A DNA stretch of 64,000 bases from Halopseudomonas xiamenensis (lineage in GTDB: Bacteria > Pseudomonadota > Gammaproteobacteria > Pseudomonadales > Pseudomonadaceae). The stretch spans positions 1 to 64,000 of the forward strand of contig NZ_JACLGO010000026.1 of NCBI RefSeq assembly GCF_014219065.1. The letters are read 5' to 3'. Made by a program: the position numbers and the translations under genes. Each line of letters opens with the position of its first letter. The first letter of the stretch is position 1. Of the stretch, positions 13,295-59,876 are shown piece after piece. The notes below the pieces were generated by a model. That model worked only from the letters and a program-made list of their open reading frames with translations. It was not told the DNA's origin and searched no databases.

Positions 13295-13313
13295 CTCGTC
13301 TGATCAGACGATG
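13295..13313 (+). promoter_or_regulatory. island operator site 1 (GTC-N6-GAC dyad)
   Basis: CTCGTCTGATCAGACGATG contains the perfect palindrome CGTCTGATCAGACG. It matches the 19-bp motif found upstream of the other island operons. A -10-like hexamer (CAGAAT, 13334-13339) begins 30.5 bp from the dyad centre. The next gene starts at 13426. Confidence 0.7.
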
Positions 13314-13425
13314 CCGGCCTTTCGCGGACTTTCCAGAATCGATGCAATCGACCCCGGGCAATCCTGGCCGAGCCGCCACCGTTGGGCATGGCTCGGCCAG
13401 CGGTCCATTCGTTTCGGAGACCAGC

Positions 13426-14661
13426 ATGGCAGGCATCGAACAACAACTATCCCGAGCCTATACCCCGATCACCATCGGCCCGTTGACCCTGCGCAATCGT
13501 TTCATCAAGTCAGCCACCAACGAGGGCATGTCCCCGGACGGCGTGCCGTCGCGTCAGCTGGTGCAATTCCATGCGGCGATGGCCGCCGGTGGTGCCGGCC
13601 TGACCACTGTGGCCTATTGCGCGGTCAGTGGTGACGGTTGCACGTTACCCAATCAGATTGTGATGAACCGCGCCACCTTGCCGCATCTGCGTGCGCTGAC
13701 CGATGCCGTGCATGCAGAAGGTGGTGCGGTTTCCGCGCAGATCACCCATGGTGGTTGCTTCATCTTCGTCAAGCCGCCGGGCCAGGGGCGTCCGATTTCG
13801 GCCAGCGGTGGTTTCAACAAGATCGGCCTGATGAGCGGGCAATACCTCAAGCGAGAAATGAGCGTGGCGGACATGCAGCGGGTGGCGGCGGATTTCGCCG
13901 CGGCCGCCGAGCTGGCCCGCGAGGCCGGTTTCGACGCGGTGGAAATCCACATGGGCCACGGCTACCTGCTCAGCCAGTTCATCTCGCCGCTGTACAACAA
14001 GCGTCGGGACGAATACGGCGGCAGCCTGAGCAACCGGATGCGCTTCCCGCGCATGGTGCTGCGCCGGGTGCTGGATGCGGTGGGCGAGGACCTGGCAGTG
14101 ATCTGCAAGTTCAGCATGACCGAGGGCGTGCGCAGTGGTAATCGCATCGAGGACGGCGTGGCGGTGGCGCGTGAGCTGGCCGAGGAGGGCGCGCATCTGC
14201 TGGTGCTGAGCGCGGGGATGAACGCCGAGTCGATCAAGACCATGTTCGGCTCCTCCTTCCCGCCGGAAAACCGGGCGGTGGTGACCAACCCGATCATGAA
14301 GGCGGCCATGTTCCTGCAGTCGCTGTCCGAGAAGCCGCTGGAATTCCGTGAACTCTATCTGCTCCAGTACGCCCGCAAGGTGCGCGAAGCCGTGGATGTG
14401 CCGCTGGCCTATCTGGGCGGGGTAACCTCGGCCCAGGGGGTTGCCCAGGTCATGGAGGAGGGGTTCGACACCCTGGCCATGGGCCGGGTGCTGATTCATG
14501 ACCCGAACTGGGTAAAGCGGCTGGGCGAAGGACAGATCCAGCGCAGCGGCTGCACCGCCTGCAACCGCTGCGTGACCATGATGTACACCGATGGGGGCAC
14601 CAGCTGTGTGCTGGGCCAGCCGGGTGATGCGCAGCTCAATCGTATGCCGGCAGCTGGCTGA
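13426..14661 (+). CDS. NADH:flavin oxidoreductase (OYE family) with Fe-S cysteines
   Basis: 411 residues from the ATG at 13426; the frame is open further upstream but runs across the sRNA terminator. An FMN TIM barrel of the old yellow enzyme/2,4-dienoyl-CoA reductase type, with substrate pair HMGH in AVEIHMGHGYLLSQF. Near the C-terminus the cysteines C-x2-C-x2-C-x11-C (GCTACNRCVTMMYTDGGTSC) match the [4Fe-4S] site of trimethylamine dehydrogenase/FadH-like enzymes, yet the FAD/NAD(P) domain that normally follows is absent. It probably reduces or rearranges an unsaturated ketosteroid or dienoyl-CoA. The next gene encodes an FAD dehydrogenase. First gene of the operon running to 22.8 kb. Confidence 0.85.
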   Translation: MAGIEQQLSRAYTPITIGPLTLRNRFIKSATNEGMSPDGVPSRQLVQFHAAMAAGGAGLTTVAYCAVSGDGCTLPNQIVMNRATLPHLRALTDAVHAEGGAVSAQITHGGCFIFVKPPGQGRPISASGGFNKIGLMSGQYLKREMSVADMQRVAADFAAAAELAREAGFDAVEIHMGHGYLLSQFISPLYNKRRDEYGGSLSNRMRFPRMVLRRVLDAVGEDLAVICKFSMTEGVRSGNRIEDGVAVARELAEEGAHLLVLSAGMNAESIKTMFGSSFPPENRAVVTNPIMKAAMFLQSLSEKPLEFRELYLLQYARKVREAVDVPLAYLGGVTSAQGVAQVMEEGFDTLAMGRVLIHDPNWVKRLGEGQIQRSGCTACNRCVTMMYTDGGTSCVLGQPGDAQLNRMPAAG

Positions 14662-14697
14662 CACTCCCCTCGACAATCAATGCAGAAGGACGCTGGA

Positions 14698-16176: not shown

Positions 16177-16192
16177 ACAAGCATGCCGCCAA

Positions 16193-16210
16193 TCGTCCGT
16201 CCGGACGACG
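16193..16210 (+). promoter_or_regulatory. island operator site 2
   Basis: TCGTCCGTCCGGACGACG holds the GTC-N6-GAC core. The -10-like TAGAGT (16232-16237) begins 31.5 bp from the centre. It precedes the acyl-CoA dehydrogenase gene at 16295, suggesting an internal promoter in the operon. Confidence 0.55.
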
Positions 16211-16294
16211 TCGCGACGCTGGTGCTGGCGTTAGAGTCGACGCATAACCAAGACCGGGTCCGCGATCTGGTGAGAACAACAAGCAGGTAACACG

Positions 16295-17485: not shown

Positions 17486-17495
17486 GGAGAGTGCC

Positions 17496-18626: not shown

Positions 18627-18667
18627 AGGCCGTTGCCGATCATTACAAGAACGACAAAGAGGTGAGC

Positions 18668-20338: not shown

Positions 20339-20360
20339 ACAGCGTCGAGGTGAGACCAGC

Positions 20361-27513: not shown

Positions 27514-29418
27514 TCACTCGATGTGACCACGCTCGATCAGGGTGGCGATGATCCTGTCCACGGCCTGTTCGGGCGACATCCGGGTGGTCTCGATATGAAT
27601 GTCCGGGTTGGCCGGCGCTTCATAGGGAGAATCGATACCGGTGAAGTTCTTCAACTCGCCCCGACGGACCTTCTTGTACAGACCTTTTGGGTCGCGTTCT
27701 TCGGCTATCGGTAGAGGGGTGTCGATGAAAATTTCCAGAAACGCCTCATCACCCAGCAACTGGCGCGCCATTTCCCGTTCGGAGCGGAACGGCGAGATGA
27801 AGGCGGTGAGGGTGATCAGGCCGGCATCGACGAACAGCTTGCCGACCTCGGCGACGCGGCGGATATTCTCCACCCGATCGGCATCGGTGAAGCCCAGGTC
27901 GCGGTTCAGGCCATGGCGCACGTTGTCACCATCCAGCAGATAGGTGGACTGGCCACGGGCATACAGGCGTTTTTCCAGCAGGTTGGCAATGGCCGACTTG
28001 CCGGCGCCAGACAGGCCGGTGAACCACAGCAGGACCGGCTTCTGCCCCAGTTGTTCGGCGCGCACCTTCTGGTTCACATCGGTGTGCTGCATATGGATGT
28101 TCTGCGAACGGCGCAGCGAGAAGTCAATCAGGCCGGCGCCGACGGTGGCGTTGCTCAGCCGATCGATCAAAATGAAACTGCCGGTTTCGCGGTTGCTCTG
28201 ATAGGGATCGAAGGCCACCGGCTGACTGCAGGAGAGATTGCACACGCCGATCTCGTTCAGCGCCAGCTCCTTGGCGGCCAGATGCTCCAGAGTATTGACG
28301 TTGATCTTGTGCTTGGGTGCGGCGAGGGTCACCGGCACGGTCTTGCCACCGATCTTCATCAGATAGGGGCGTCCGCCGAGCATGGGTTGCTCATGCATCC
28401 AGACCAGAGTGACTTGGAACTGATCGGCCACGCTCGGCGGTTCGTTGGCGGTGGCGATCACATCGCCACGGCTGCAGTCCACTTCGTCGCTCAGGGTCAG
28501 GGTGACCGACTGGCCGGCCACGGCCTGCTGCAGGTCGCCATCCTGGGTGACGATGCGGGCAATATGGGTTTCCCGGCCGGCGGGCAGAATACGCACGCGG
28601 TCGCCCGGTTGCACTACGCCAGCGGCGACGGTGCCGGCAAAGCCGCGGAAGTCCAGGTTCGGGCGGTTGACCCACTGCACCGGCATGCGGAAGGGCAGTT
28701 TCTGCTGGTGGGACTCGTCTATCTCGACGGTTTCCAGGTAGCCCATCAACGTGGTGCCCCGGTACCACGGCATATGCTCGGTGCGCTCGGTGATGTTATC
28801 GCCCCGCAGTGCCGACATCGGGATGGCGGTGATCTCGGGCAGGTTGATCTTGCCGGCGAATTCACGGTATTCCTCGACGATTTCGTTAAAGACCTTTTCC
28901 GAGTAGTCCATCAGATCCATCTTGTTGACCGCCAGCACCACCTTGCGAATGCCGATCAGCGAGGCCAGGAAGGAGTGACGCCGGGATTGAGTCAGCACGC
29001 CGCGACGGGCGTCGATCATCACGATGGCAACATCGGCGGTGGAGGCACCGGTGACCATGTTGCGGGTGTACTGCTCGTGGCCGGGTGTGTCGGCGACGAT
29101 GAACTTGCGACGGTCGGTAGAGAAGAAGCGATAGGCCACATCGATGGTGATGCCCTGTTCGCGCTCGGCCGCCAGGCCATCCACCAGCAGAGCGAAGTCC
29201 AGTTCGCCGCCCTGGGTGCCGACCCTTTTCGAGTCGGCTTCCAGTACGTCCAGCTGATCCTCGAAGAGCATCTTGGCTTCATACAGCAGGCGCCCGATCA
29301 GCGTGCTCTTGCCGTCGTCGACGCTGCCACAGGTAATGAACCGCAACAGGCTCTTGTGTTCATGGGATTTGAGATATGCCTCGATATCGTCGGCAATCAG
29401 GTCGGATACGTGAGCCAT
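27514..29418 (-). CDS. cysNC: bifunctional CysN/CysC (ATP sulfurylase GTPase + APS kinase)
   Basis: 634 residues. Residues 1-440 are the EF-Tu-like GTPase subunit of ATP sulfurylase ([26 protein letters not shown]). From about residue 450 the APS kinase domain follows (P-loop [16 protein letters not shown] near 468, [15 protein letters not shown]). With CysD it turns sulfate and ATP into APS and then PAPS. The start overlaps the cysD stop by ATGA. Fused CysNC is usual in pseudomonads. Confidence 0.95.
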
Positions 29419-30317
29419 CAGAAATACCCCTCTTGTTTTTTCTTCTCCATCGATGCTGCGGCGTCATGGTCGATCATTCGGCCTTGTCGTTCCGAGGTGC
29501 GGGTCAGCAGCATTTCCTGAATGATCTTCGGCAGGGTGTCGGCATCGGACTCGACCGCGCCGGTCAGCGGATAGCAACCCAGGGTGCGGAAGCGCACGTT
29601 GCGCAGCATCGGGACCTCGCCCGGGTTCAGCGGCATACGTTCGTCGTCCACCATGATCAGCATGCCGTCGCGCTCGACTACCGGGCGCGGGGCGGCGAAA
29701 TACAGGGGAACGATGGGAATGTTTTCCAGATGGATGTACTGCCAGATATCCAGCTCGGTCCAGTTGGACAAGGGGAACACACGGATCGACTCGCCCTTGT
29801 TCTTGCGGGTGTTGTACAGATGCCACAGCTCCGGTCGCTGGTTCTTCGGGTCCCAGCGATGCTGGTCGGAACGGAAGGAGAAGATACGTTCCTTGGCGCG
29901 TGATTTTTCCTCGTCACGACGTGCGCCGCCGAAGGCTGCATCGAAGCCGTATTGATCCAGCGCTTGCTTGAGACCCTCGGTCTTCATGATGTCGGTATGG
30001 ATCTGCGAGCCGTGCTTGAACGGGCTGATCCCCATTGCCAGCCCGTCGGGATTGACGTGGCTGATCAGCTCCAGGCCCAGTTTCGCCACCATCTGGTCGC
30101 GGAAGCGATACATGTCCTGGAATTTCCAGGTGGTATCGACATGCAGCAGGGGGAACGGCGGCTTGGCTGGATAGAAGGCCTTCATTGCCAGGTGCAGCAT
30201 TACCGCGCTGTCCTTGCCAATGGAGTACAGCATGACCGGGTTGTCGGCCTCGGCCACTACTTCGCGCATGGCCTGGATGCTTTCGGCTTCCAGTCTCTGC
30301 AGGTGCGTCAACGTCAT
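29418..30317 (-). CDS. cysD: sulfate adenylyltransferase subunit 2 CysD
   Basis: 299 residues if translation starts at the ATG at 30317, which is preceded by AAGGA nine bases away. PP-loop-type motif [17 protein letters not shown] near the N-terminus, [17 protein letters not shown], and C-terminal [16 protein letters not shown]. Catalyses APS formation with CysN. The first residues ([20 protein letters not shown]) match the normal CysD N-terminus, so the enzyme is complete. The same reading frame stays open 337 codons upstream (see the overlapping entry). Confidence 0.93.
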
Positions 30318-31328
30318 AGCTTTTTCCTTCGACTTTTGTTGTTGTCGACGCTCAGCGTATCGGGGCTGATTCGCCGAGTTATGCGCGAGTTGAAGTTTTA
30401 ATATGCGTTGCAGCATGAACAGCATCGGGTTGCCGGGCGGGCTGGCGGGGAGCCCTGCAGCGCCTGCGTTGCCCACATCTGTAGCGCGTTGGCTGTGGTG
30501 ACGGATATCCTCGGCCAACTGCTGGGCGCCGTTCAGCATGTCGGTGGCTTGGGGCAGGTGAAACAGCTGCAGTTGCTCGGTGCGCTTGCTGGCCCAGGCG
30601 CTGAAGGTGGCTGCACGCTGCCATTGCATGCCCGGCAGCAGAGCGAAGAGCTTGCGCCCGGTACTGCGCTGCAGGCGGTCGAAGAAGTTCTCCAGATGTG
30701 GCGCACGCAAGCCACCATCGTAGGGTAGCCAGAGCACCTTGCCGCGGTTGCTCATGGCCCTGAGTACGCCATGCCGCAGTTTCTTGCCGGGGCTCGGCGC
30801 ACCGAAGTCGTCGACCCAGAAAATCTCACCACCTTCCTCCCGGGCCTGGGAGGCGATCTGTTGATAGGTGCTCTGGTGCCACCGCTGGACGCTGAGGGGA
30901 GCGTTGGCGATGCGCCGGGCCGGGCGCTCGGCATTCAGCCGCCAGCGTTGCAGGTAGTGTGTCGCGGTGCGGTCGGGAATGCTGATCCGGTACTGCTTAC
31001 GGACCAGCGCCTGCATGGCTTCGAGCTGCCAGAGCAGGTATGGCAACTGGTGGGCTTCCGGCGCGGTGGCGACCAGCGTCTGGTACATCTCCAGCTCCTG
31101 CTCGGCGCTCAAGGTACGTCCTTCCCCCATCTTGCGGCCACGCTCGCGGATGGGGACGGCCTGCCAGCCACCGTTCTGCCAGGCCTTATGCGCGGCAATG
31201 ATGGTCGGCGAGGACAGCCCTGTGGCGGCACTGATGGTCTTCAGGGTATTGCCCGCCAGGCGCAGCTTCACGGCCTGGATGCGCAGGGTATTGAGCTGCC
31301 CGATGGGCAGGCGGTTACCACGTGCCAT
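29418..31328 (-). CDS. HTH/IS630-like protein continuous with CysD (636-residue ORF)
   Basis: An ATG at 31328 with AAAGGAG upstream opens a frame that reads through into cysD with no stop. Residues 1-130 have an IS630-type HTH/winged-helix organisation ([30 protein letters not shown]). Residues 160-300 resemble a DDE transposase core ([18 protein letters not shown]) with the later catalytic acid lost ([10 protein letters not shown]). Either a real HTH-CysD fusion is made, or the upstream protein shares its C-terminus with CysD while cysD also starts at 30317. No flanking inverted repeats or second IS end are visible. A domesticated regulator is one reading; a recent in-frame deletion of a stop is another. 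Confidence 0.6.
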
Positions 31329-31406
31329 GACCGCTCCTTTAAATATCCAATTGCTGATTGGGGGGATAGTTGGTCCCTGTACTCTTGCGGGTACGGAAAA
31401 AAGACG

Positions 31407-31425
31407 CATAGTCCGTTTGGACCAA
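31407..31425 (-). promoter_or_regulatory. island operator site 3 (weak)
   Basis: Read on the minus strand, TTGGTCCAAACGGACTATG matches the island consensus at 15 of 19 positions and keeps GTC-N6-GAC. AAGAGT lies 30.5 bp from the centre toward the HTH-CysD gene. It lies between that gene and cysQ and could serve the whole sulfotransferase operon. Confidence 0.45.
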
Positions 31426-31446
31426 TCTGAAAAAAAGAGGAAAGCT

Positions 31447-32211
31447 ATGAACGAAGCCATGTCAGCGCTGCTTGAGCAGGTGATCGATATCACCCGTGTC
31501 GCCGGTGAACAGGTGCTGCAGATCTATCACTCCGATTTCGAAGTGCGAGGCAAGGATGATGCTTCACCGGTGACCGAGGCCGACGAGCGTGCCGAGGCTC
31601 TGATCCTGCGGGCCCTGGCGCAGTGCGCGCCCGCTGATCCGGTGATTTCCGAAGAGGCTGCCGCTGCGGGTCATGTACCCGAGGTGGGTCAGCGCTTCTG
31701 GCTGGTGGATCCGCTCGATGGCACCAGGGAGTTCGTCAGTCGCAATGGTGAATTCACGGTCAATATCGCTCTGATCGAAGCTGGCGAACCTGTGCTGGGC
31801 GTGGTACTGGCTCCTGCGTTGGGCCGCCTGTTCGCCGGGGCCAGGGGCTGTGGCGCTTTTGTCGAGGAGGCCGGTATACGCAAGCCCATCGAATGCCGCG
31901 AACCCTCATCCGAGGGGCTGGAAGTGGTGGCCAGCCGCTCCCATGGGGATGCCCAGGCGCTGGATGCCTTTCTGGCCGGGCGCAAGGTCCGCTCGCTGAA
32001 AAGCGCCGGCTCATCATTGAAGATCTGCCTGGTGGCCGCTGGGGAGGCGGATCTGTATCCGCGTCTGGGTCGTACCATGGAATGGGATATCGCCGCTGGT
32101 CACGCAGTGCTGCTGGCGGCTGGTGGCCAGATATTGACGCTGCAGAACGAGCCGCTGCGATACGGCAAACCGGGCCTGGACAACCCGTATTTCTATGCCC
32201 GGGGTAGATGA
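31447..32211 (+). CDS. cysQ: 3'(2'),5'-bisphosphate nucleotidase CysQ
   Basis: 254 residues from the ATG at 31447 (AGAGGAAAG upstream). Inositol-phosphatase fold with metal motifs [16 protein letters not shown] and [10 protein letters not shown]. It hydrolyses PAP, the product left by sulfotransferases and PAPS reductase, to AMP. Divergent from the cysD-cysNC-sulfotransferase operon with 118 bp between the starts, an arrangement that pairs PAPS use with PAP removal. Confidence 0.93.
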
Positions 32212-35354: not shown

Positions 35355-36698
35355 TCAGGCTCCTTCAAGCACAGGGGATGCGGTGGGCAGGTCCGGACCG
35401 GACACCTGCCGACGATAGCGGGGGATTGCCAGAGCCAGGCTCAGGCAGGGAAGCACCAGAATGACCATGGTGCTGGCCATCGCATAGCGCAGGGCCTCGG
35501 CGCCGATGGCCAGTTCAAAAAAATCACTGAGTACGCCAACCACCAGCGGGCCGAGGCCGACACCGAGCAGGGTCACGCCCATCAGGAATATGGCGGTGCC
35601 CTGGGCCATCTTCGAGGCCGGGAACAGGTGAGTCATGGCGCCGAAGCAGGGGACCGACCACCAGACACCGAAAAATGCGAAACCCAGGTACAGCAGGAAA
35701 GGCATGGGTACGCTCATCTCGCCCAGGCTGAACACCGCGCCGGCGGGCCACAGGAAAAACAGCAGGCCGAAAGGGATACTCATTGCTGTACCGAACAGCG
35801 CTGTGCCCAGTTGCCAGCCGCTGTCACGTCGCACCAGGCGGTCGGTGGCCCAGCCACAGACCAGGGTGCCGATCACTGACATCAGTCCGCCGCCGACGCC
35901 CAGCAACATGCCGGCTTCGGTCAAGCTCAGACCATGGGAGCGGATCAGGAAACTCGGCGTCCAGGTGCCTACGGCGTAGGCCGCGATGGCGGCGAGGCTG
36001 CCGGCGGCGACGATCAGTGCATAGGAGGGGGTTCTGGCCAGTGACAGGAAGGTTTTCACAAAACTTTCCTGGGACTCCTGCGCCGATGCCAGCTGGTGGC
36101 GCGGCGCACGCACGGTCAGAGCCAGCAACAGACCCAGCAGCACGCCCGGCGCACCGATCAGGATGAACGCCCAGCGCCAGCCGTACATATCGGCGATCCA
36201 GCCGCCCATGCCCAGGCCAAAGACCGCACCGAGCGCCGGGCCCATGAGGAAGACCGCCAACGCCCGGGAGCGGTGGCTGGGAGGATACAGGTCGGCCACC
36301 ATGGCCACCGAGGGTGCCGATCCGCCGGCTTCACCGATCGCCACGCCGATGCGAAACAGCAACAGCATGGCGAAGCTGGTGGCGACCCCGCAGAGCATGG
36401 TCATGGCGCTCCAGGCGATACATGCCAGGGCGATCACCGGCTTGCGTCCGATACGGTCGGAAAGACGCCCCAGCGGCAGGCCGAATACGGTATAGAACAG
36501 CGCGAAAGCCACCCCGGAGAGCAGTCCGATCATGGTGTCGGATACGCCGAACTCCAGCTTGATGGGTTCGATCAGGATCGAGACCAGCAGGCGGTCTATG
36601 TAGTTGAAAATGTAGATCAGCGCCAGCATCAGCAGGGCGTAGTGGGTATGCCAGGTGATTTTGCGCTGGGTAGGGCAAGGGATGGCTGACGAGTTCAC
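35355..36698 (-). CDS. MFS transporter (12 segments)
   Basis: 447 residues from a GTG at 36698 with CGGAG seven bases upstream. N-terminal half has YIFNYIDRLLVSILIEPI and GRLSDRIGRKP between segments 2 and 3, typical of the anion/sugar-acid and aromatic-acid MFS branches. Candidate importer of a steroid acid or related carboxylate. First gene of the operon, two bases upstream of the hydrolase gene, and divergent from the SDR at 36901 with two operator sites between. Confidence 0.85.
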   Translation of the reverse strand: MNSSAIPCPTQRKITWHTHYALLMLALIYIFNYIDRLLVSILIEPIKLEFGVSDTMIGLLSGVAFALFYTVFGLPLGRLSDRIGRKPVIALACIAWSAMTMLCGVATSFAMLLLFRIGVAIGEAGGSAPSVAMVADLYPPSHRSRALAVFLMGPALGAVFGLGMGGWIADMYGWRWAFILIGAPGVLLGLLLALTVRAPRHQLASAQESQESFVKTFLSLARTPSYALIVAAGSLAAIAAYAVGTWTPSFLIRSHGLSLTEAGMLLGVGGGLMSVIGTLVCGWATDRLVRRDSGWQLGTALFGTAMSIPFGLLFFLWPAGAVFSLGEMSVPMPFLLYLGFAFFGVWWSVPCFGAMTHLFPASKMAQGTAIFLMGVTLLGVGLGPLVVGVLSDFFELAIGAEALRYAMASTMVILVLPCLSLALAIPRYRRQVSGPDLPTASPVLEGA

Positions 36699-36757
36699 GG
36701 CATGCTCCGGATTTTATTCTTGGTTGTCCGATCATCCACCGCGCCGGCAAGCCTCAA

Positions 36758-36776
36758 CATCGTCCGTTCAGACCAG
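36758..36776 (-). promoter_or_regulatory. island operator site 4 (leftward)
   Basis: Minus-strand CTGGTCTGAACGGACGATG. A -10-like GATGAT (36736-36731) starts 31.5 bp from the dyad centre. Serves the MFS-hydrolase-reductase operon. Confidence 0.7.
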
Positions 36777-36807: not shown

Positions 36808-36826
36808 TTAGTCTCAACGGACGATG
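36808..36826 (+). promoter_or_regulatory. island operator site 5 (rightward)
   Basis: TTAGTCTCAACGGACGATG. The -10-like AATCAT (36847-36852) starts 30.5 bp from the centre. Serves the SDR operon from 36901. Together with site 4 it makes a symmetric divergent control region. Confidence 0.75.
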
Positions 36827-36900
36827 TTGGTCGCTGTTCGCGAATGAATCATAGCTGCAACCGTCAATGGGTCGACTGCGATCGGCCAACAGGAGCAGCG

Positions 36901-37635
36901 ATGAAACTCGATAACAAGATTGCCTTTGTGACTGGTGCCGCTCAAGGCATGGGTGCCGCCATTGTCCGCGAATTCGTGGCCCGGGGGGCGCTGGTTTATG
37001 CCGCCGATATCAATGCCGAGGCCATCGAGGCCAGTGTTGCCGAGCTGGGTGACCGGGCCCGGGCGGTGGTGTGCAACGTCATGGACGAAGCCTCGGTGCA
37101 GGCTGCCATGCAGCGTATCAGTGACGAGGCCGGGCGCCTCGACGTACTGGTCAACAATGCCGGTACCGGCTCGGTTGACAGCTTCCTGGACACCCCGGTG
37201 GAAAACTGGGATCGCGTAGTTGGCGTCAACCTCAAGGGCACCTTCCTGTGCGCCCGTGAAGCGGCTCGCCTGATGGTCTCCAAGGAGACTGCCGGCACCA
37301 TCATCAATTTTTCCAGCACCGGTGCGGTTACCGGTGAAGGCCCCAGCCATTACGTGGCCTCCAAGGCCGGCGTCATGGGGCTGACCCGCGCCCTGGCCCG
37401 CGAGCTGGCACCGCAGAAGATTCGCGTCAACACCATTGTCCCCGGTCCCACCGACACGCCGATGATGGCTGGCATTCCCGATGAGTGGATGCAGGCGATG
37501 ATCGCCGCGATTCCCCTGGGTCGACTCTGCCAGCCCGACGAAGTGGCCCGCGTGGCGGCCTTCCTGGCCAGTGACGATGCCAGCTTCATTACCGGCCAGA
37601 ACATCACCGTCAACGGCGGTTCGGCATTCCTCTGA
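36901..37635 (+). CDS. short-chain dehydrogenase/reductase
   Basis: 244 residues with TGAAQGMG, DIN after beta 2 (NAD preference), NNAG, YVASK and NITVNGGSAFL at the C-terminus. First gene of a seven-gene rightward operon. Probably a hydroxysteroid dehydrogenase (3-, 7-, 12- or 17-position) or hydroxyacyl-CoA dehydrogenase; position specificity cannot be read from sequence. Confidence 0.87.
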   Translation: MKLDNKIAFVTGAAQGMGAAIVREFVARGALVYAADINAEAIEASVAELGDRARAVVCNVMDEASVQAAMQRISDEAGRLDVLVNNAGTGSVDSFLDTPVENWDRVVGVNLKGTFLCAREAARLMVSKETAGTIINFSSTGAVTGEGPSHYVASKAGVMGLTRALARELAPQKIRVNTIVPGPTDTPMMAGIPDEWMQAMIAAIPLGRLCQPDEVARVAAFLASDDASFITGQNITVNGGSAFL

Positions 37636-44809: not shown

Positions 44810-44828
44810 TTAGTCTGATCAGACGATG
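44810..44828 (+). promoter_or_regulatory. island operator site 6
   Basis: TTAGTCTGATCAGACGATG, with perfect inner palindrome GTCTGATCAGAC. The -10-like AATAAT (44848-44853) starts 29.5 bp from the centre. Gives the DUF1329 gene its own promoter, independent of the operon before it. Confidence 0.78.
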
Positions 44829-44889
44829 AGCCTGCAGCTGACGACGCAATAATGGATTGAAAGTCGCGTATACCCTGTGGAGAAGAATA

Positions 44890-46272
44890 ATGAGCAAACA
44901 TGGTGTAGTAGTTTCCCTGGCCGCCGCCATCAGCATGACTGTCGCGGGTTGGGCCAATGCCGCAGTTTCCCCCGAAGAGGCCGAGCGACTGGGCCAGGAC
45001 CTCACCTGCGTAGGCGCCGAGCGGGCAGGTAACGCCGATGGCAGCATCCCCGAGTTCAAGGGGTTGTACGTGGGCAAGGTTCCGGGCTGGGATGCCGCGC
45101 CGCACAGTGGTGCGCACCCGATCGACCCCTTTGCCGCGGACCAGCCGATCCTGGTGATCACCGCTGCCAACATGGCCGAGCATGCCGACAAGCTGACCGA
45201 CGGTCAGCAGGCGATGCTCAAGCGCTATCCCGATACCTACAAGATCAACGTGTATGAGGGGCGTCGTGAGTTCGCCTACCCGGAGGTGGTCTGCGAACGC
45301 GCCAAGTGGAACGCGCTGAATGCCGAGGTGGTGGATGACGGCTTCGGTTACACGGGGCTGGGCTATGTACCCTTCCCGATTCCCAAGAGCGCGATGGAAG
45401 TGCTGTGGAACCATCAGCTGCCGTTCCGTGCCTGGACCCAGGACGAGATTCGCGATATCGCTTCGGTAACTGCCAGTGGCAGTATCGGCTGGGGTCGTTC
45501 CCATGGTCGCTGCCTGGCTCCGCCCATGGATCCGGATCCGAACCTGCGTCCGCATACCGATGACGGCGTTTCGGCCTACTGTACCACCGAGGTTCTGCTG
45601 CCACTGCGTGAGCGGGGCAACACCTCGCTCAACCACGAGCCCTATAACTACCGTACCGCAGCGCGTACTGCATGGTCCTACAACACCGGGACACGCCGGG
45701 TGCGCCTGGCTCCCGGCTATGGCTACGACCAGCCGCTGGGTGGCAGTAACGGTCTGATGACCATCGATGAGGACCGCCTGTTCAACGGTGCGCCGGATCG
45801 CTACGACTGGACGCTGGTAGGCAAGCAGGAGGTCATCATCCCGGCCAACGCCTACAAGGTGCATGGCAAGGATGTCAGCTACAAGGACCTGTTGACCGCC
45901 AATCATCCCAACCCGGAGTACCTGCGCTATGAACTGCGGCGGGTGTGGGTGATCGAGGCCAACGTCAAGCCGGGCAGCCGCCATCTGTATGGCAAGCGCC
46001 GCCTGTTCATCGATGAGGACAACTGGCATGCGGTGATGGCGGATAACTACGATAGCCGTGGCGACCTGTGGAAACATGCCATCATCAACTACTACTACCA
46101 TCCGGATACCAGCGCCTGGCAGGCGGGTACGTCGTTCTTCCACGACCTCAACAGCGGTGGCTATATCGGCTACACCCTGGCCAATGAGCGTGAGCGGGCG
46201 GCAATCCTGAACAAGGGCGAGATGGACCCGAGCCAGTTCACTCCGGACCGGCTGCGGGCCATGGGTCGCTGA
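44890..46272 (+). CDS. DUF1329 periplasmic/outer-membrane protein
   Basis: 460 residues from the ATG at 44890. Signal peptide with cleavage after GWANA; mature protein begins AVSPEEAERLGQDLTCVGAERAGN, the usual DUF1329 start, and has long beta-rich LolB-like stretches (RYELRRVWVIEANVKPGSRHLYGKRRLFIDED). Partners DUF1302 proteins in the uptake of hydrophobic compounds. It has its own operator-promoter. Confidence 0.88.
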   Translation: MSKHGVVVSLAAAISMTVAGWANAAVSPEEAERLGQDLTCVGAERAGNADGSIPEFKGLYVGKVPGWDAAPHSGAHPIDPFAADQPILVITAANMAEHADKLTDGQQAMLKRYPDTYKINVYEGRREFAYPEVVCERAKWNALNAEVVDDGFGYTGLGYVPFPIPKSAMEVLWNHQLPFRAWTQDEIRDIASVTASGSIGWGRSHGRCLAPPMDPDPNLRPHTDDGVSAYCTTEVLLPLRERGNTSLNHEPYNYRTAARTAWSYNTGTRRVRLAPGYGYDQPLGGSNGLMTIDEDRLFNGAPDRYDWTLVGKQEVIIPANAYKVHGKDVSYKDLLTANHPNPEYLRYELRRVWVIEANVKPGSRHLYGKRRLFIDEDNWHAVMADNYDSRGDLWKHAIINYYYHPDTSAWQAGTSFFHDLNSGGYIGYTLANERERAAILNKGEMDPSQFTPDRLRAMGR

Positions 46273-47055: not shown

Positions 47056-47225
47056 GATGGCATCCTTGTGGTTTTCCGAAGAGCGGACCGTTGCCAGTGC
47101 AGGCTGCTGGCCGCCTGGGCAAGAGTGCGGCGAGATGGTCGGCTTGTCCTAGTTGGTTCGGACTAGCGCAGGTCGTCGGCAAGCTGGTTGTGCCGGCCGT
47201 CACGGAGCAGGGAAAAATACTCGAT

Positions 47226-47244
47226 GTAGGCTTAACGGACGATG
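47226..47244 (+). promoter_or_regulatory. island operator site 7
   Basis: GTAGGCTTAACGGACGATG; left half degenerate (GGC for GTC), right half identical to the consensus. GACAAT (47266-47271) starts 31.5 bp from the centre. Precedes the thiolase gene. Confidence 0.6.
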
Positions 47245-47325
47245 AAAGGCTCCCTGGGAGGGCGTGACAATCGAGCACAGAGGGTGACATTTTCCAGGTC
47301 GCCCGCAGCCGATGAGGGGAAAATC

Positions 47326-48537
47326 ATGGGTTTGAAAGGGACGGCCGCCATTGTTGGCGCCGCGCAGTACAAGCCGGAAAAATATTCCACGGCGCCACAG
47401 ATGTTCCACCTGGAGCAGGTCGCCGACCTGGCTGCCCAGGCGCTGGCCGATGCGGGCTTGCAGGCCTCGGATATCGATGGCCTGTGCATCAACGGTCCGC
47501 ATTTTCATGAAGCGTCCAGTTTCGTGCCGGCGATGGCCGCGGAATACCTGGGCATCGCATTGAACTTCGCTGAAGTGGTCGACCTTGGTGGTACCACCTC
47601 GGTGGGCATGATCTGGCGTGCGGCGGCCGCTATCGAGCTGGGTATCTGCCAGGCGGTGCTGTGCGTGATTCCGCAGCGCATGGCGTCCTTCGGTCCCGAT
47701 GATGATCCATCGGCCATGGCCCGGGCCATGCGCTTCGGTGGCCACAGTACCCAGTACGGCGCGCCGGAGGCCGAGTTCGACCTGCCCTATGGCCATATGG
47801 GGCAGAATACCGGCTACGCGATGATCGCCCAGCGCTACGCGGCGCAGTACGGCTATGACCAGCGCGCGATGGCGAAGATCGCGGTGGACCAGCGGTTCAA
47901 TGCCCAGGCTCATCCGGATGCCATCTTCCGTGGCCAGGAGCTGAGCATCGAGGATGTGCTGGGCAGCAAGATGGTTGCCGATCCGTTGCACATCCTCGAG
48001 ATCGTCATGCCGGTGGCCGGCGGGGCTGCGGTGATCGTCGCCTCCAAGGAACTGGCCATGCGCAGCAAGGGCCGGCCGGCCTACATCACCGGTTTCGGCG
48101 AGCGGCTGGGCTACAAGTCGCCGAGCTATTCGCCGGACATGACCGAAACCCCGGTCGGGCCGGCGGCGCGCAGCGCCTTCGCCATGGCCGGGCTGAAGCC
48201 TGCCGACATGCACGCCGCGCAGATCTACGACTGCTACACCATCACCGTGCTGCTCAGCCTGGAGGACGCCGGGTTCTGCGCCAAGGGCGAGGGCATGCGC
48301 TTCATTCTCGACAATGACCTGACCTACAAGGGCAACTTCCCGATGAACACCCACGGTGGGCAGCTGAGTTTCGGCCAGGCCGGCTCGGCCGGTGGTTTCT
48401 CCCAGGTGGTCGAGGCCTATCAGCAGGTGGCCGGCAAGGCCGGTGACCGCCAGCTCAAGGTCTGTGACCAGGTGTTCGTTTCCGGCACCGGCGGTGTCAT
48501 GAGCGAGCAGGGCGCATTGATTCTTCAGGGGGCTTGA
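47326..48537 (+). CDS. SCP2-type thiolase homologue without catalytic cysteine (Ltp2-like aldolase candidate)
   Basis: 403 residues from the ATG at 47326 (GAGGGGA upstream). Thiolase fold, but the place of the acyl-accepting Cys reads DLGGTTSVGM, so it cannot be an ordinary thiolase. IYDCYTITVLLSLEDAGFC and NTHGGQLSFGQAGSAGG resemble SCP2/Ltp-type proteins. Ltp2 of steroid-degrading actinobacteria likewise lacks the Cys and splits the side chain by retro-aldol cleavage, in complex with a DUF35 protein. The next gene encodes a DUF35 domain, three bases on. Confidence 0.85.
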   Translation: MGLKGTAAIVGAAQYKPEKYSTAPQMFHLEQVADLAAQALADAGLQASDIDGLCINGPHFHEASSFVPAMAAEYLGIALNFAEVVDLGGTTSVGMIWRAAAAIELGICQAVLCVIPQRMASFGPDDDPSAMARAMRFGGHSTQYGAPEAEFDLPYGHMGQNTGYAMIAQRYAAQYGYDQRAMAKIAVDQRFNAQAHPDAIFRGQELSIEDVLGSKMVADPLHILEIVMPVAGGAAVIVASKELAMRSKGRPAYITGFGERLGYKSPSYSPDMTETPVGPAARSAFAMAGLKPADMHAAQIYDCYTITVLLSLEDAGFCAKGEGMRFILDNDLTYKGNFPMNTHGGQLSFGQAGSAGGFSQVVEAYQQVAGKAGDRQLKVCDQVFVSGTGGVMSEQGALILQGA

Positions 48538-49602: not shown

Positions 49603-49621
49603 TTAGTCTCAATGGACGATG
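49603..49621 (+). promoter_or_regulatory. island operator site 8
   Basis: TTAGTCTCAATGGACGATG. AACAAT (49643-49648) starts 31.5 bp from the centre. Controls the dioxygenase-ipdAB-fadA6 operon. Confidence 0.78.
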
Positions 49622-49686
49622 AATGCGCCATGCCCGGCGCGCAACAATCCATTCATGCTTTCAGGCCCTGAATGAGGAGTTGCGGC

Positions 49687-50586
49687 ATGAGTGAGATTCG
49701 CGCATTGAGCTATTTTGTAGCGCAGATTGATGATGTGCAGAAGTGGCAGCATTACGCCGAGAACGTGCTGGGCATGATGACCAGCCGCACCTCCGATGGT
49801 GCGCTGTATATCAAGATGGACGACCGGCCCTTCCGCATGCTGGTGGTCGAGGGGGCGGAGGATCGCTATCTGGCCTCCGGCTGGGAACTGGCCGGCAAGA
49901 ATGCCTTTGACGCCATGCTGCGCAAGCTGGACGCCCAGGGCGTCGAGTACAGCCTGGCCGATGCCGCTTTCTGCGCCCAGCGCGGGGTCAACGAGGCCGC
50001 GCTGCTGCAGGATCCAGCAGGCAACCGGCACGAACTGACCTGGGGCTACCTGTCCGACTGTGAACCCTTCGTCTCGCCCCAGGGTGTGCCGCGCTTCCTG
50101 ACCGGTGACATGGGGCTGGGCCACACCGTGCTGCCGACGCCCAACTTCGATGAGTGCGCAGCTTTCTACCGCGATGTGCTGGGCTTCGAGATTTCCGACA
50201 TCTTCAACTTCCGTCCGGTGCCGGACGCGCCGGCCACCCGTATCCACTTCCTGCACTGCGGCAATGCCCGGCATCACAGCCTGGCGATTGCCGAGTACGA
50301 CGTACCGAGCAAGTGCGTGCATGTGATGGTCGAGGTGGATTCCATGACCGAGGTCGGTCGTGCGCATGACCGGCGCATCGCCCATCAGGTGCCGCTGTCG
50401 GCGACCCTGGGTCAGCACCTCAACGACAAGATGACCTCTTTCTATATGAAGACGCCCTCCGGTTTCGACCTGGAGTACGGCTGGGGCGGATTGCAGGTGG
50501 ACTGGGATCAGCACACCGCCTTTGAATTCACCAAGGTCAGCATCTGGGGTCATGACTTCGGCGCCGGCCAGCAGGAGGAGCAGTAA
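49687..50586 (+). CDS. hsaC: extradiol ring-cleavage dioxygenase, HsaC/TesB-like
   Basis: 299 residues, two vicinal-oxygen-chelate modules. Fe(II) ligands are visible as His146 (GLGHTVLPTP), His212 (CVHVMVEVD) and Glu263 (GFDLEYGWGG); the second-sphere His pair is in NARHHSLAI. Same positions as BphC/HsaC. It opens a catechol ring by meta-cleavage; in steroid catabolism HsaC/TesB cleaves the aromatised A ring of 3,4-DHSA. Context with ipdAB and an HsaD-like hydrolase supports this over biphenyl. Coupled by one base to ipdA. Confidence 0.87.
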   Translation: MSEIRALSYFVAQIDDVQKWQHYAENVLGMMTSRTSDGALYIKMDDRPFRMLVVEGAEDRYLASGWELAGKNAFDAMLRKLDAQGVEYSLADAAFCAQRGVNEAALLQDPAGNRHELTWGYLSDCEPFVSPQGVPRFLTGDMGLGHTVLPTPNFDECAAFYRDVLGFEISDIFNFRPVPDAPATRIHFLHCGNARHHSLAIAEYDVPSKCVHVMVEVDSMTEVGRAHDRRIAHQVPLSATLGQHLNDKMTSFYMKTPSGFDLEYGWGGLQVDWDQHTAFEFTKVSIWGHDFGAGQQEEQ

Positions 50587-55042: not shown

Positions 55043-55064
55043 GCAAGACCTTGAGAGTGCCACC

Positions 55065-56231: not shown

Positions 56232-56241
56232 GGACGCCAAC

Positions 56242-57300
56242 ATGGACTTTACCTTTACCGAAGACCAATTGGCCTTCCGCGAAGCGATCAGTCGCTTTCT
56301 GATGACCGAAGCGCCGCCGGAGATGCTGCGCGAGATCTGGGACACCGACGATGGTCGTTCCCCGGAGCTGCGCGGCAAGATGGCCGAGCAGGGGCTGACC
56401 GCGCTGTCGGTGCCCGAAGCCCAGGGCGGGCTGGGCATGGACGATATCGCCTGGTCATTGCTGACCCAGGAGTTGGGCTACTACGCCATCGCCGACTCGC
56501 TGGCCGATACCGCCTACGTCGCCACCGGCCTGCTCAGCGCACTGCCCGAGGGCACGCCGCGCCGTGATGAAATGCTCAGCCGCATCGCCGAGGGCAATGT
56601 GCGCATCGCCGTTGGTCACAGCGTCAATCCGCTGATCGCCGACGTGCACCTGGCCGATGTGGTCCTGCTGGAGCATGAGGGCGAGGTGCATGGTCTGCGC
56701 CGCGACGCCATCGGCTTTGAACGCAACCCGAGCATCGACAGCTCGCGGCGCCTGAGCCGGGTCAGTTTCACGCCCAGCGCCGACAGCCTGGTGCTGGATG
56801 CCGGGCAGGGCCGCGCGGTCTGGGCCCAGACCCTGAATCGTGGCGCGCTGGCGGTAGCTGGGCAGAGCCTGGGCCTGGCCCAGCGCATGCTCGACCTGTC
56901 GGTGGACTATGCGGTGCAGCGCAAGCAGTTCGGCAAGCCAATCGGCAGCTTCCAGGCGGTCAAGCACCACCTGGCCGACGTCGCCGGCAAGATCGAGTTC
57001 GCCAGGCCGGTGCTGTACCGTGCCGCCCATGCCCTGGCGCACGGCGAAGCCGGTGCCGACCTGCATGTATCCCATGCCAAGCTGGCCTGCTGCGAAGCCG
57101 CCTGGCTGGCCGGCCGGCATGGTATCCAGGTGCATGGCGCCATGGGCTACACCTGGGAAGTCGACCTGCAGATGTTCATGAAGCGCGCCTGGGCGCTGGA
57201 CTCCTCCTGGGGTGACCGCGCCTTCCACAAATCCCGGGTGGCCAACGCCATCCTCGCGCCCGATGCCGCCATCGGCCCGCAATACACCTTCGCGGAGTGA
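56242..57300 (+). CDS. acyl-CoA dehydrogenase, pair 2 small subunit
   Basis: 352 residues from the ATG at 56242, 10 bp after the partner. MDFTFTEDQLAFREAISRFL, YAVQRKQFGKPIGSFQAVKHH and IQVHGAMGYTWEVDLQMFMKRAW are family motifs; the central beta domain is shortened and lacks the SEPNAGSD signature. Divergence of the FAD region is typical of the second chain of alpha2beta2 steroid acyl-CoA dehydrogenases. Confidence 0.87.
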   Translation: MDFTFTEDQLAFREAISRFLMTEAPPEMLREIWDTDDGRSPELRGKMAEQGLTALSVPEAQGGLGMDDIAWSLLTQELGYYAIADSLADTAYVATGLLSALPEGTPRRDEMLSRIAEGNVRIAVGHSVNPLIADVHLADVVLLEHEGEVHGLRRDAIGFERNPSIDSSRRLSRVSFTPSADSLVLDAGQGRAVWAQTLNRGALAVAGQSLGLAQRMLDLSVDYAVQRKQFGKPIGSFQAVKHHLADVAGKIEFARPVLYRAAHALAHGEAGADLHVSHAKLACCEAAWLAGRHGIQVHGAMGYTWEVDLQMFMKRAWALDSSWGDRAFHKSRVANAILAPDAAIGPQYTFAE

Positions 57301-57303
57301 ATC

Positions 57304-58455
57304 ATGGCCCAAGCCTATATTGTTGATGCCCTGCGCAGCCCCACCGGGCGGCGCAAGGGCAGTCTGGCCAGCGTCCACGCCATCGACCTGGGTGCCGCGG
57401 TACTCAAGGCGCTGGTCGAGCGCAACGGCATCCCTGCCGATGACTACGATGACGTGATCTTCGGCTGCGTCGATACCATCGGCTCGCAGGCCGGTGATAT
57501 CGCCCGCACCAGCTGGCTGGCCGCCGGCCTGCCGCTGACTGTGCCCGGCACCACGGTCGACCGTCAGTGCGGTTCCTCGCAGCAGGCGCTGCACTTCGCC
57601 GCCCAGGCGGTAATGAGCGGTACCCAGGATGTGGTCGCCGTCGGCGGTGTGCAGACCATGACGCAGATCCCGATCTCCTCGGCCATGCTCGCCGGCCAGC
57701 CGTTGGGCTTTCCCGATCCGTTCTCCGGCAGTGAGGGCTGGCAGGCACGTTTTGGCGGTCAGCCGGTCAACCAGTTCTACGCCGCCCAGCGCATCGCCAG
57801 CCACTGGAACATCAGCCGGGCGGACATGGAAGCCTTCGCCCTGGAGAGCCATCGCCGTGCGCTGCATGCTATCGCCGAGGGCCGCTTCGAGCGGGAGATC
57901 GTCGCTGTGAATGGCTTGGCGGTGGACGAGACGCCCCGCCAGACCACATTGGAAAAGATGGCCTCGCTGGAGCCGGTCGATGCGCAGTTCCCGGATATTA
58001 CCGCAGCTGTCTCCAGCCAGACCTGCGATGCCTCGGCGGCCATGCTGGTGGTGTCGGAGGCGGCGCTCAAGCGCTATGGCCTGACGCCCCGAGCCCGCGT
58101 GCATCACCTGACGGTACTCGGTGATGATCCGATCTGGCACCTGACCGCACCGATTGCCGCCACCCGTCGTGCCCTGCAGCGGGCCGGCATGAACATGGCC
58201 GATATCGACCTGGTGGAAATCAACGAGGCCTTCGCCTCGGTGGTCATGGCCTGGCAGAAGGAGCTGGACTACGATCCGGCCAGGACCAACGTCAACGGCG
58301 GCGCCATTGCCCTCGGGCACCCCCTCGGCGCCACTGGCGCGCGGCTGATGACCAGCTTGCTGCATGAGCTGGAGCGCAGTGGTGGCCGCTACGGCCTGCA
58401 GACCATGTGTGAGGGCGGTGGCCAGGCCAACGTGACCATCATCGAGCGGCTGTAG
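57304..58455 (+). CDS. fadA6: FadA6-like thiolase
   Basis: 383 residues. Active-site Cys in TTVDRQCGSSQQALHFAA near residue 87; NEAFASVVMAW, GGAIALGHPLGATGARLM, and the second Cys in QTMCEGGGQANVT. A working degradative thiolase, unlike the Cys-less one at 47.3 kb. FadA6 performs the thiolytic step at the end of HIP catabolism. Last gene of the operon. Confidence 0.88.
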   Translation: MAQAYIVDALRSPTGRRKGSLASVHAIDLGAAVLKALVERNGIPADDYDDVIFGCVDTIGSQAGDIARTSWLAAGLPLTVPGTTVDRQCGSSQQALHFAAQAVMSGTQDVVAVGGVQTMTQIPISSAMLAGQPLGFPDPFSGSEGWQARFGGQPVNQFYAAQRIASHWNISRADMEAFALESHRRALHAIAEGRFEREIVAVNGLAVDETPRQTTLEKMASLEPVDAQFPDITAAVSSQTCDASAAMLVVSEAALKRYGLTPRARVHHLTVLGDDPIWHLTAPIAATRRALQRAGMNMADIDLVEINEAFASVVMAWQKELDYDPARTNVNGGAIALGHPLGATGARLMTSLLHELERSGGRYGLQTMCEGGGQANVTIIERL

Positions 58456-58467
58456 CTGTTCCGGGGT

Positions 58468-58497
58468 GTAGCGCCCCGGTCCGCGTTCGGGCGCTAC
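58468..58497. terminator. REP-like hairpin after fadA6
   Basis: GTAGCGCCC / GGGCGCTAC nine-base stem with a 12-base loop, 12 bp after the fadA6 stop, not followed by T. The GGGGTGTAGCGC unit recurs at about 10.2 and 10.3 kb. Confidence 0.55.
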
Positions 58498-58523
58498 GCC
58501 AGCGAACTGGCAGCAACCCAGCA

Positions 58524-58575
58524 GGTCGGGACGGAACCCGGCCCTCCATGAATCGGGCGCTCTGCTGAGCGCGGT
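58524..58575. repeat. intergenic repeat copy 2 (GGTCG..CCCTCCATG)
   Basis: GGTCGGGACGGAACCCGGCC then CTCCATGAATCGGGCGC and a GCGCTCTGCTGAGCGC hairpin. Related to the copy at 32288 between cysQ and the flavin reductase gene. Confidence 0.5.
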
Positions 58576-58595
58576 TGTCACGAGGGAAAGGTTTG

Positions 58596-59837
58596 ATGCC
58601 AGCGAACACAGACACATATCAGGCCCCGGAACTGACGCTGGACGAGTACGACCGGATCGTCGGCCGGATCTACTCCGGTGCTCTGCACACAGCGCATTTG
58701 TATGATGCGCTGGAGGAGTTGCGGCTGCTGTTTGCGGCCCGCTTCGTTACGCTTATCCTGCATGTGGCCGATGCCGAGGACGTGGCACTGATGCTGGTTG
58801 CCGGCAATCAGGAAGTCGAGGGGCGGGTTGCGCTGTTCAAGTACTTCCCCAGTGATACACCCCTGGCGCGGTTGCCCGTGGACAAGGTGTACTGCATCGA
58901 AGACCTGATGAGCATAGCGGAATGGGAAAACAGCCGTTACTACCGCGAATATGCCCGGCCCAGTGACGTCTACCATGTGATGGGGGCGGACCTGGCTACA
59001 CAGTCGGGGATCATCGGCTTCCGCGTCGCACGGGCGCATGGCCAGCCGGCCTTTTCCATGCATGACAAGGCGTTGTGTACCCGGCTGTTGCCACACCTGC
59101 GTTGCAGTCTGGACTTTCATGACCTGCTGGATCGCCGGGAGTCCATGGGCAATCTGTATTCCGAGGCGGTCAATCGCCTGTCGGTCGCCAGCATGGTACT
59201 GGATGAGGCCGGCCATGTGCTGCAACTCAACTCGGTGGCGCGCACTCTGCTGGAACGGGCCGATGGGCTCAAGATGGTCGGCTCGCGCCTGGAGGCCAGT
59301 TACCCCAGCGATAACCGAGAGTTGTATCGGTTCATCCGCTATGCCGCCGAGTCCCGTGCCAACCTGGCTTCCGAGCCGGTATCCGCGGCCCTGTCCATCG
59401 CCCGGCCCTCGGGTCAGGTGGGGCTGGGTGTGGTGATAGAGCCGATCCGCAACAGCGGTTGGGTCGAGGGGCAGGGCCAGCCGGTGGTCATGATCTATGT
59501 GCGGGACGCCATGGGTGGGGTGCAGATGAGCAGCGAGCTGGCGCAGCAGCTGTTCAACTTCACGCCGGCCGAAACCACCCTGGCCCTGCAACTGGCCAAC
59601 GGCCTGTCGCTGGAGGAAGCCGCGGAAAAACTCGGTATAACGCGCAATACCGGCCGCGCCCACCTGCGTTCGATCTTCGCCAAGACCGGCATCAAGCGCC
59701 AGGCCGAGCTGGTCAAGGTGTTGCTCAACAGTATCGTTTCCCTCGGGCTGGGTGAAGTCGCCGAGCTGGAGAAACGCCCCGTTCCAGTGATCATCCAGCC
59801 GGAGCAGCGTTTCTCGCCGGATAATCCGCCGGCGTAG
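58596..59837 (+). CDS. LuxR-type transcriptional regulator of the island
   Basis: 413 residues from the ATG at 58596 (CGAGGGAAAG upstream). The N-terminal 300 residues have no clear catalytic motif but contain a PAS-like stretch after about residue 185 (SVASMVLDEAGHVLQLNSVARTLLERADG). C-terminal LuxR HTH: FTPAETTLALQLANGLSLEEAAEKLGITRNTGRAHLRSIFAKTGIKRQAELVKVLL. The only regulator gene in the catabolic region. TeiR of Comamonas testosteroni, which senses testosterone and activates steroid genes, is also a LuxR-type protein of about this length. No copy of the island operator is seen in front of this gene. Confidence 0.87.
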   Translation: MPANTDTYQAPELTLDEYDRIVGRIYSGALHTAHLYDALEELRLLFAARFVTLILHVADAEDVALMLVAGNQEVEGRVALFKYFPSDTPLARLPVDKVYCIEDLMSIAEWENSRYYREYARPSDVYHVMGADLATQSGIIGFRVARAHGQPAFSMHDKALCTRLLPHLRCSLDFHDLLDRRESMGNLYSEAVNRLSVASMVLDEAGHVLQLNSVARTLLERADGLKMVGSRLEASYPSDNRELYRFIRYAAESRANLASEPVSAALSIARPSGQVGLGVVIEPIRNSGWVEGQGQPVVMIYVRDAMGGVQMSSELAQQLFNFTPAETTLALQLANGLSLEEAAEKLGITRNTGRAHLRSIFAKTGIKRQAELVKVLLNSIVSLGLGEVAELEKRPVPVIIQPEQRFSPDNPPA

Positions 59838-59857
59838 TGCCCGCGCGCTCCCACCCT

Positions 59858-59876
59858 TTAGTCTCTATGGACGATG
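59858..59876 (+). promoter_or_regulatory. island operator site 9
   Basis: TTAGTCTCTATGGACGATG. AACAAT (59897-59902) starts 30.5 bp from the centre. Controls the operon from 59962 to beyond the window end. Confidence 0.78.

Follow-up and report, generated by a model that had tools for sequence, protein, structure and literature searches.

What controls the steroid-degradation operons in a 64-kb stretch of the Halopseudomonas xiamenensis genome (contig NZ_JACLGO010000026.1, positions 1 to 64,000; hereafter the window, contig C18 in our numbering), where one palindromic DNA word recurs in front of gene after gene? We describe this word, a dyad with the symmetric core TNGTC-N6-GACNA that stands at a fixed distance from a -10-like hexamer, and find that in many gamma- and betaproteobacteria that degrade steroids it marks the genes of this pathway. 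The sequence evidence makes it very likely that the dyad serves as operator for a TeiR/TesR-like family of LuxR-type activators that would switch on steroid-degradation operons; it is probably the landing place of a steroid-responsive activator family. A LuxR-type gene of this kind lies in the window at 58596..59837 (+).

The original prediction, made from the letters of the window alone, had named nine dyads with a GTC-N6-GAC core, each with a hexamer of the form xAxxxT beginning 29.5-31.5 bp from the dyad centre. All nine were located, and the hexamer was present at the predicted offset in every case. Dyad 36808..36826 (+), with AATCAT at 36847-36852 (offset 30.5 bp), lies upstream of a short-chain dehydrogenase/reductase (SDR) gene at 36901 and is the top own-genome match of the sequence-only model described below; it forms a divergent pair with dyad 36758..36776 (-), whose GATGAT (36731-36736, offset 31.5 bp) precedes an MFS transporter gene at 35355-36698 (-). 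Dyad 49603..49621 (+), with AACAAT at 49643-49648 (31.5 bp), stands upstream of an HsaC/TesB-type extradiol dioxygenase gene at 49687. Directly 3' of the LuxR-type gene, dyad 59858..59876 (+) has AACAAT at 59897-59902 (30.5 bp) and precedes an SDR gene at 59962. Three more precede a DUF1329 gene at 44890 (dyad 44810..44828, +; AATAAT 44848-44853, 29.5 bp), a thiolase/lipid-transfer-type gene at 47326 (dyad 47226..47244, +; GACAAT 47266-47271, 31.5 bp), and an OYE-type gene at 13426 with a FAD-binding gene at 14680 (dyad 13295..13313, +; CAGAAT 13334-13339, 30.5 bp). The last two are doubtful. Dyad 16192..16210 (+), with TAGAGT at 16232-16237 (31.5 bp) upstream of gene 16295, starts in register at 16192 and not at 16193 as first given; dyad 31407..31425 (-), with AAGAGT at 31381-31386 (30.5 bp) upstream of an IS630-like/CysD open reading frame (ORF), is doubtful because its right arm changes from GGAC to GGCC in Pseudomonas sp. 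MYb185 (genome G036), one of the same-genus genomes, which also include Halopseudomonas formosensis.

A matrix built from other species scored eight of the nine dyads at 21 bits or more, including those at 13295 (23.1 bits), 31407 (21.9 bits) and 47226 (21.1 bits), and gave only 16.5 bits to 16192, the core and TAGAGT of which are kept in G036. The dyads at 16193, 31407 and 47226 had been called the weakest; this view survives for the first two, whereas 47226 is well scored and is kept with its -10 in G036, G025 and G035. The dyads were also thought to lie outside genes, and those at 13295 and 31407 do fall within longer mechanical ORFs, yet upstream of likely start codons. A tenth dyad, suggested at 47149, was dropped, as it scored below 10 bits with the other-species matrix and 10.2 bits with the window matrix and showed no conservation. 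The bare GTC-N6-GAC core was likewise abandoned as evidence, with 30 copies in the window versus 16.5 +/- 3.8 in shuffles, only about twofold over chance.

The anatomy of these promoters is not fully symmetric. In the right arm, T18 and G19 are not mirrored on the left; columns 17-19 read ATG, columns 20-22 are variable, and 17 bp separate columns 17-22 from the -10 at column 40. We infer that columns 17-22 (ATGNNN) are a shared degenerate -35 element. The dyad centre precedes the -10 by about 30.5 bp, and if the start of the -10 is taken as -12, the centre falls at about -42.5 relative to inferred start sites. This agrees with the earlier proposal of a dyad at about -42 with GATGNN in the -35 position and refines it to an ATG 17 bp from the -10. 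The promoters thus have a poor -35 overlapped by the dyad, as expected for a class-II LuxR-type activator, and both the spacing and the co-occurrence with a LuxR-type protein fit such an activator, as had been proposed, and not a scattered repressor site.

The range of hexamer offsets was set after inspecting the window dyads, and the held-out tests consisted of a second contig of the same genome (C81), other species, and HsaC promoters. The chance frequency of xAxxxT in a three-position window, measured on the other-species sites, was 0.093 per site. The hexamer was found at the predicted offsets in 8/10 C81 dyads of at least 11 bits and began at column 39, 40 or 41 in 70/73 other-species sites, where three-column windows clear of these positions gave 1-13; it began at column 40 in 20/20 HsaC promoters. 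The claimed fixed promoter spacing was therefore kept in sites that had not been seen when it was proposed.

Contig C81 carries more genes of the steroid cluster, together with three tandem LuxR-type paralogues (C81:3664-7474; 61, 60 and 48% identical to the 58596 protein). Its dyad at C81:28727 is 96 nt upstream of an HsaA-like gene with a KstD-like gene next after it, and the dyad at C81:25342(-) precedes an HsaB-like reductase gene; all three proteins score under the curated NCBIfam cut-offs. The orthologous sites in G036 share a single contig (about 251-350 kb), so that C18 and C81 probably adjoin. The dyads C81:25342(-) and C81:25376(+) (L008:5342 and 5376) stand back to back, 34 bp apart, with divergent genes on either side, and overlapping dyads on opposite strands also occur on a Vibrio plasmid (L059:17156/17157) and in G331. 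A weak dyad at C81:962 (L007:962) has GATATT at the exact spacing and is located about 200 bp upstream of a large ORF (1179-3653).

Within the 4.28-Mb genome the element is concentrated in the steroid cluster. Unlike the bare core, the longer word is specific. In its exact form TNGTCN6GACGATG it occurs 24 times, of which the window holds 6, C81 (first 50 kb) 5 and the rest of the genome 13, versus 2 occurrences of its reversed form; with the hexamer in register the exact count is 8 versus 0 (window 3, C81 cluster 3, elsewhere 2). Allowing one mismatch in the composite of dyad and hexamer gave 36 versus 6, with many of these outside the steroid cluster. A looser pattern, TTAGTCN6GACNANG with up to two mismatches, was uninformative (679 versus 1,923 for the reversed pattern). 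A sequence-only model was trained on eight window dyads, leaving out 16192, and used to scan the whole genome; its 11 matches at E<=10 were the eight training dyads plus C81:40102(-), 13230(+) and 25376(+). The uneven motif density that had been predicted for a complete-genome scan was thus observed, with no model match at E<=10 off the two steroid contigs. The scan scored 150/240 first-look candidates in this genome and, under stricter filters, at most 141 per genome in a 58-genome set, such that weak sites can be missed.

Relatives show the same unevenness: in the 58-genome set, those without the cluster have no dyads or stray single ones. A LuxR homologue of at least 56% identity is present in 10/58 genomes, exactly the 10 that carry four to nine dyads (E<=0.3), and an HsaC/TesB orthologue of at least 80% identity is found in the same 10 and in no others. 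Among the other 48, 44 have no dyads, G006, G007 and G057 have one each, and G043, with a 36% homologue, has two (E<=0.3). Exact composites of dyad and -10 number 146 versus 8 reversed in 17 cluster-bearing genomes, 6 of the 8 reversed being in G074; in seven members of the genus that lack the cluster the numbers are 5 versus 2. Individual sites are also preserved. The 49603, 59858 and 44810 dyads are unchanged in G036, G025 and G035 despite diverged flanks, although in G025 no clear -10 follows the 44810 dyad; 59858 is kept in G003 as well, and the 13295 site recurs with its CAGAAT in G036, G035 and G003. Divergent pairs like 36758/36808 were recognized by eye in G036, G025, G035, G028, G034, G005, G015, G078 and G073 (flanking genes were compared for G036), and the matches listed show 36808-like dyads (AATCAT) paired again with a divergent 36758-like dyad in genomes of Halopseudomonas and Pseudomonas. 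One dyad-free genome (G023, at E<=0.3) contains at C45:130621-130881 a fragment of 62% identity that spans just the helix-turn-helix (HTH) part of the LuxR protein, in a 134-residue open frame, possibly a remnant.

How far does the element extend beyond close relatives? A scan of named genomes gave 525 confirmed homologue loci, and the best 79 of these were used; the matches listed include Pseudomonas, Stutzerimonas, Halopseudomonas, Marinobacter, Marinobacterium, Thauera, Aromatoleum and others. On 73 of these loci (1.42 Mb), with homologues 49-59% identical, the window matrix found 142 matches of at least 16 bits versus 7 for the reversed matrix. A site set was then assembled from sites of at least 16 bits, excluding loci L062-L067 as belonging to the same genomes as G003, G036, G025 and G035. 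Thinning its 139 sites at 75% identity over 60 bases yielded 73 non-redundant sites, five of which (L069, L070) come from G005 and G015, two genomes of the same genus as the window. In this set columns 2-6 and 13-19 are conserved, a 20-bp gap is nearly featureless, and the -10 occupies columns 40-45. By our rule 72 of the 73 sites have a downstream ORF, and the first such genes encode SDR (29), acyl-CoA-dehydrogenase-type (10), BNR-repeat (9), KshA C-terminal domain (7), DUF1329 (2) and thiolase (2) proteins. The element also accompanies homologues of 36-43% identity on the Vibrio alfacsensis plasmid NZ_CP140104.1, a Cupriavidus plasmid and, more weakly, a Burkholderia plasmid, and in G331, G371, G179 and G043.

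The pathway travels with the element. HsaC at 68-80% identity was found in 28/29 genomes tried (taken from 30 of the 79 loci), the exception being a Zoogloea metagenome-assembled genome at 34%. A non-steroid role for the wider family, at first expected from DUF1302/DUF1329 neighbours, was dropped on this result. HsaC promoters were then examined in 20 of the 28 HsaC-positive genomes with a matrix that omitted the window's own HsaC site, searching up to 4 kb upstream (for L155 the stretch was only 237 bases, and G059 is G015 again). In 20/20 the best same-strand dyad starts 79-91 nt before the HsaC match, at 27.8-30.1 bits. In G331, G371 and G179, which belong to the order of Thauera, a dyad with its hexamer at column 40 starts 78-89 nt before the HsaC match. 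The steroid link of the proposed regulon is upheld by this co-occurrence. The element does not belong to this island alone: members of the regulator family have it beside them in Pseudomonas, Marinobacter, Marinobacterium, Thauera, Aromatoleum and others, and on the Vibrio plasmid.

Bases outside the dyad arms behave differently from promoter to promoter. Among 14 spacer-distinct HsaC promoters the mean identity is 93% for the inner hexamer and 79% for the -10, versus 38% for the spacer, which indicates that, at this promoter at least, selection acts beyond the arms as well; the inner hexamer there is TCAAYG in 20/20 genomes. Over all 73 sites the corresponding identities are 43% (inner hexamer) and 39% (-10), and for 21 spacer-distinct dyads that closely follow luxR in other species they are 49% and 54%.

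The candidate reader of the dyad, the protein encoded at 58596..59837 (+), appears to combine a GAF-like part, a PAS-like part and a C-terminal LuxR-type HTH, and is a probable TeiR/TesR-like activator. PF00196 (GerE) matched residues 322-375 (E 1.2e-4, 22.1 bits) and Pfam PAS reached 19.9 bits, under its cut-off; Pfam and NCBIfam scans returned no kinase domain. An AlphaFold2 model (mean predicted local distance difference test 70, predicted template-modelling score 0.44) shows the GAF-like N-terminal part, the PAS-like part and the HTH (helices 313-383), and its Foldseek matches include phytochrome and phosphodiesterase GAF tandems, DhaR, VqmA and EL222. When solved structures were searched by sequence, no match was stronger than E 0.026. 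The HTH stretch is near-identical across the 58596 protein and its three C81 paralogues. In the window, the HsaC/TesB-type meta-cleavage dioxygenase gene (49687..50586, +), a marker of 9,10-seco steroid degradation (NF045631, 280 bits, cut-off 450; TIGR03213, 288 bits, cut-off 366), lies 9 kb from the LuxR-type gene. The latter begins about 140 bp after the HsaC-led gene run (58455-58596), and because no dyad scoring at least 9 bits lies in this gap, the LuxR gene may be transcribed together with the operon it targets, in positive feedback.

Taken together, the geometry suggests the following mechanism. A dimer would bind TNGTC-N6-GACNA centred near -42, with the right arm running into an ATG that would serve as a poor -35 (xTGxxx), followed by a 17-bp spacer and a usable -10 (GATACT, AACAAT and similar). 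Because the -35 is poor and the -10 usable, sigma-70 polymerase would need the bound activator at -35, i.e., class-II activation. The signal, a steroid or a breakdown product, would be sensed by the GAF/PAS-like half.

Several observations weigh against this reading. The GerE match falls under the Pfam cut-off of 23.5 bits, and the Foldseek TM-scores are low. With four paralogues in the genome, the 58596 protein may be the reader of only some of the dyads. In the window, the 16192 and 31407 dyads may be inactive; on C81, the dyads at 46161 and 15060 lack xAxxxT and the right arm of the 25376 dyad is a variant, and a strong G331 dyad (L191:18391) has its hexamer one column off. Single dyads occur without a LuxR homologue in G006, G007 and G057, among them the orphans at G007:C1:32778, which resembles the 13295 site including its -10, and G006:C7:738552. 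Conversely, G044 and G046 have near full-length homologues (36 and 28%) and no dyad at E<=0.3, the two weak dyads of G044 lack the hexamer, and the composite counts in G074 are 6 reversed versus 7 forward. The literature on Comamonas adds further points: PMC6678751 describes TeiR as a polar membrane kinase, PMC6895838, citing another report, has tesR-like genes confined to C. testosteroni, and another Comamonas LuxR-type protein is reported to act as a repressor (PMC6678751, PMC8700777).

Could the dyad instead be a repressor operator that overlaps the promoter by chance? Palindromic operators over promoters suit repressors, one steroid gene of Comamonas is reported to be repressed by a LuxR-type protein (PMC6678751), and the cluster includes a TetR-like gene (C81:8493-9167, named by eye from its N-terminus) whose product could be the reader. 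That TetR was rejected in this role on its distribution, being present at 45% identity or more in 8/38 dyad-bearing genomes or records, while G005, G024, G025, G034, G035 and G036 have dyads and no TetR match at E<=1e-10. A repressor would moreover have no need of a constant spacing from the -10 or of a missing consensus -35, and we judge this explanation very unlikely. That some other factor reads the dyad, with the LuxR gene linked only by shared neighbourhood, seems to us very unlikely. Co-occurrence by itself cannot set the regulator apart from its neighbours in the cluster, but the model found no matches off the cluster contigs, cluster-free relatives have none or stray singles, and dyads persist beside 36-43% homologues in distant taxa, including on the Vibrio plasmid.

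A further explanation is a sub-case of the LuxR-type activator reading: the four LuxR paralogues may divide the dyads among themselves, with the 58596 protein controlling a subset. This would accord with the 48-61% identity of the paralogues to the 58596 protein and with the invariant TCAAYG inner hexamer of HsaC promoters, so much better conserved than inner hexamers at large. The HTH stretch, nearly alike in all four, argues the other way, as do the dyads just downstream of luxR, which have no common inner hexamer; conservation of that hexamer may also merely tune strength. We consider such a division a serious possibility, albeit one that we lean against.

Operation of LuxR-type activators from a dyad near -42 that overlaps the -35 is familiar from the lux box. 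The window regulator would resemble LuxR and EL222-type class-II activators in this placement, and EL222 and VqmA are among its structural matches; it differs in its presumed dyad and in having GAF- and PAS-like parts in place of an acyl-homoserine-lactone or LOV domain. The TeiR type of regulator was reportedly described in 2004. TeiR/TesR of Comamonas testosteroni is described as a LuxR-type positive regulator of steroid genes (PMC6678751, PMC6895838, PMC13101464, PMC8700777). By description, its regulator type, its location in a steroid cluster with tesB and its positive control of many steroid genes (PMC6678751, PMC6895838, PMC13101464) match what is seen or proposed for the window protein, which differs from the membrane kinase described for Comamonas in modelling as GAF-PAS-HTH. 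In contrast to the stated confinement of tesR-like genes to C. testosteroni, Pseudomonas stutzeri Chol1 has two TeiR-like genes in its steroid cluster, and deletion of C211_RS11295 delays cholate degradation (PMC8399759, unpublished data there), as expected of an activator such as we propose; the available text gives no binding site or promoter architecture for them. KstR/KstR2 of Actinobacteria and EdcR of Caenibius likewise use palindromic operators in steroid regulons, but are repressors, and for EdcR the palindrome that has been proposed overlaps the -10 (PMC8700777). Homologues of KstR1/KstR2 are described as absent from bile-acid-degrading Proteobacteria, the regulatory mechanisms of which a 2021 review calls still largely unknown (both PMC8399759). 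No published operator for the TeiR/TesR family was found in the open-licence PMC literature, as far as its available text extends. A LuxR-type activator with an operator at -42 is of a known kind, while the operator itself, its promoter grammar and its reach appear to be new.

Sulfur genes also occur in these surroundings. The ORF at 29418-31493(-) resembles an IS630 transposase in its N-terminal part (NF033545, 65 bits, cut-off 100) and continues in the same frame into CysD. As cysD and cysN also occur within 15 kb of the TeiR-like gene on the Vibrio alfacsensis plasmid (L059), sulfate activation may be part of steroid islands.

More speculatively, and as an idea we hold to be doubtful, there may be one ancient cis-code for steroid catabolism in gamma- and betaproteobacteria, in which a common operator would serve intracellular GAF-PAS-LuxR steroid receptors, and the inner hexamer and -10 would form a promoter-specific address, so far seen only at the HsaC promoter, that sets the order or strength of induction or chooses the paralogue. 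With a defined operator and a fixed geometry, a steroid regulon could be listed from sequence, missing pathway genes could be found by their promoters, and steroid-responsive reporters could be built. The operator also gives exact predictions for TeiR-type regulators, in the form of start sites and point mutations, and the control of bacterial steroid breakdown thereby becomes directly testable.

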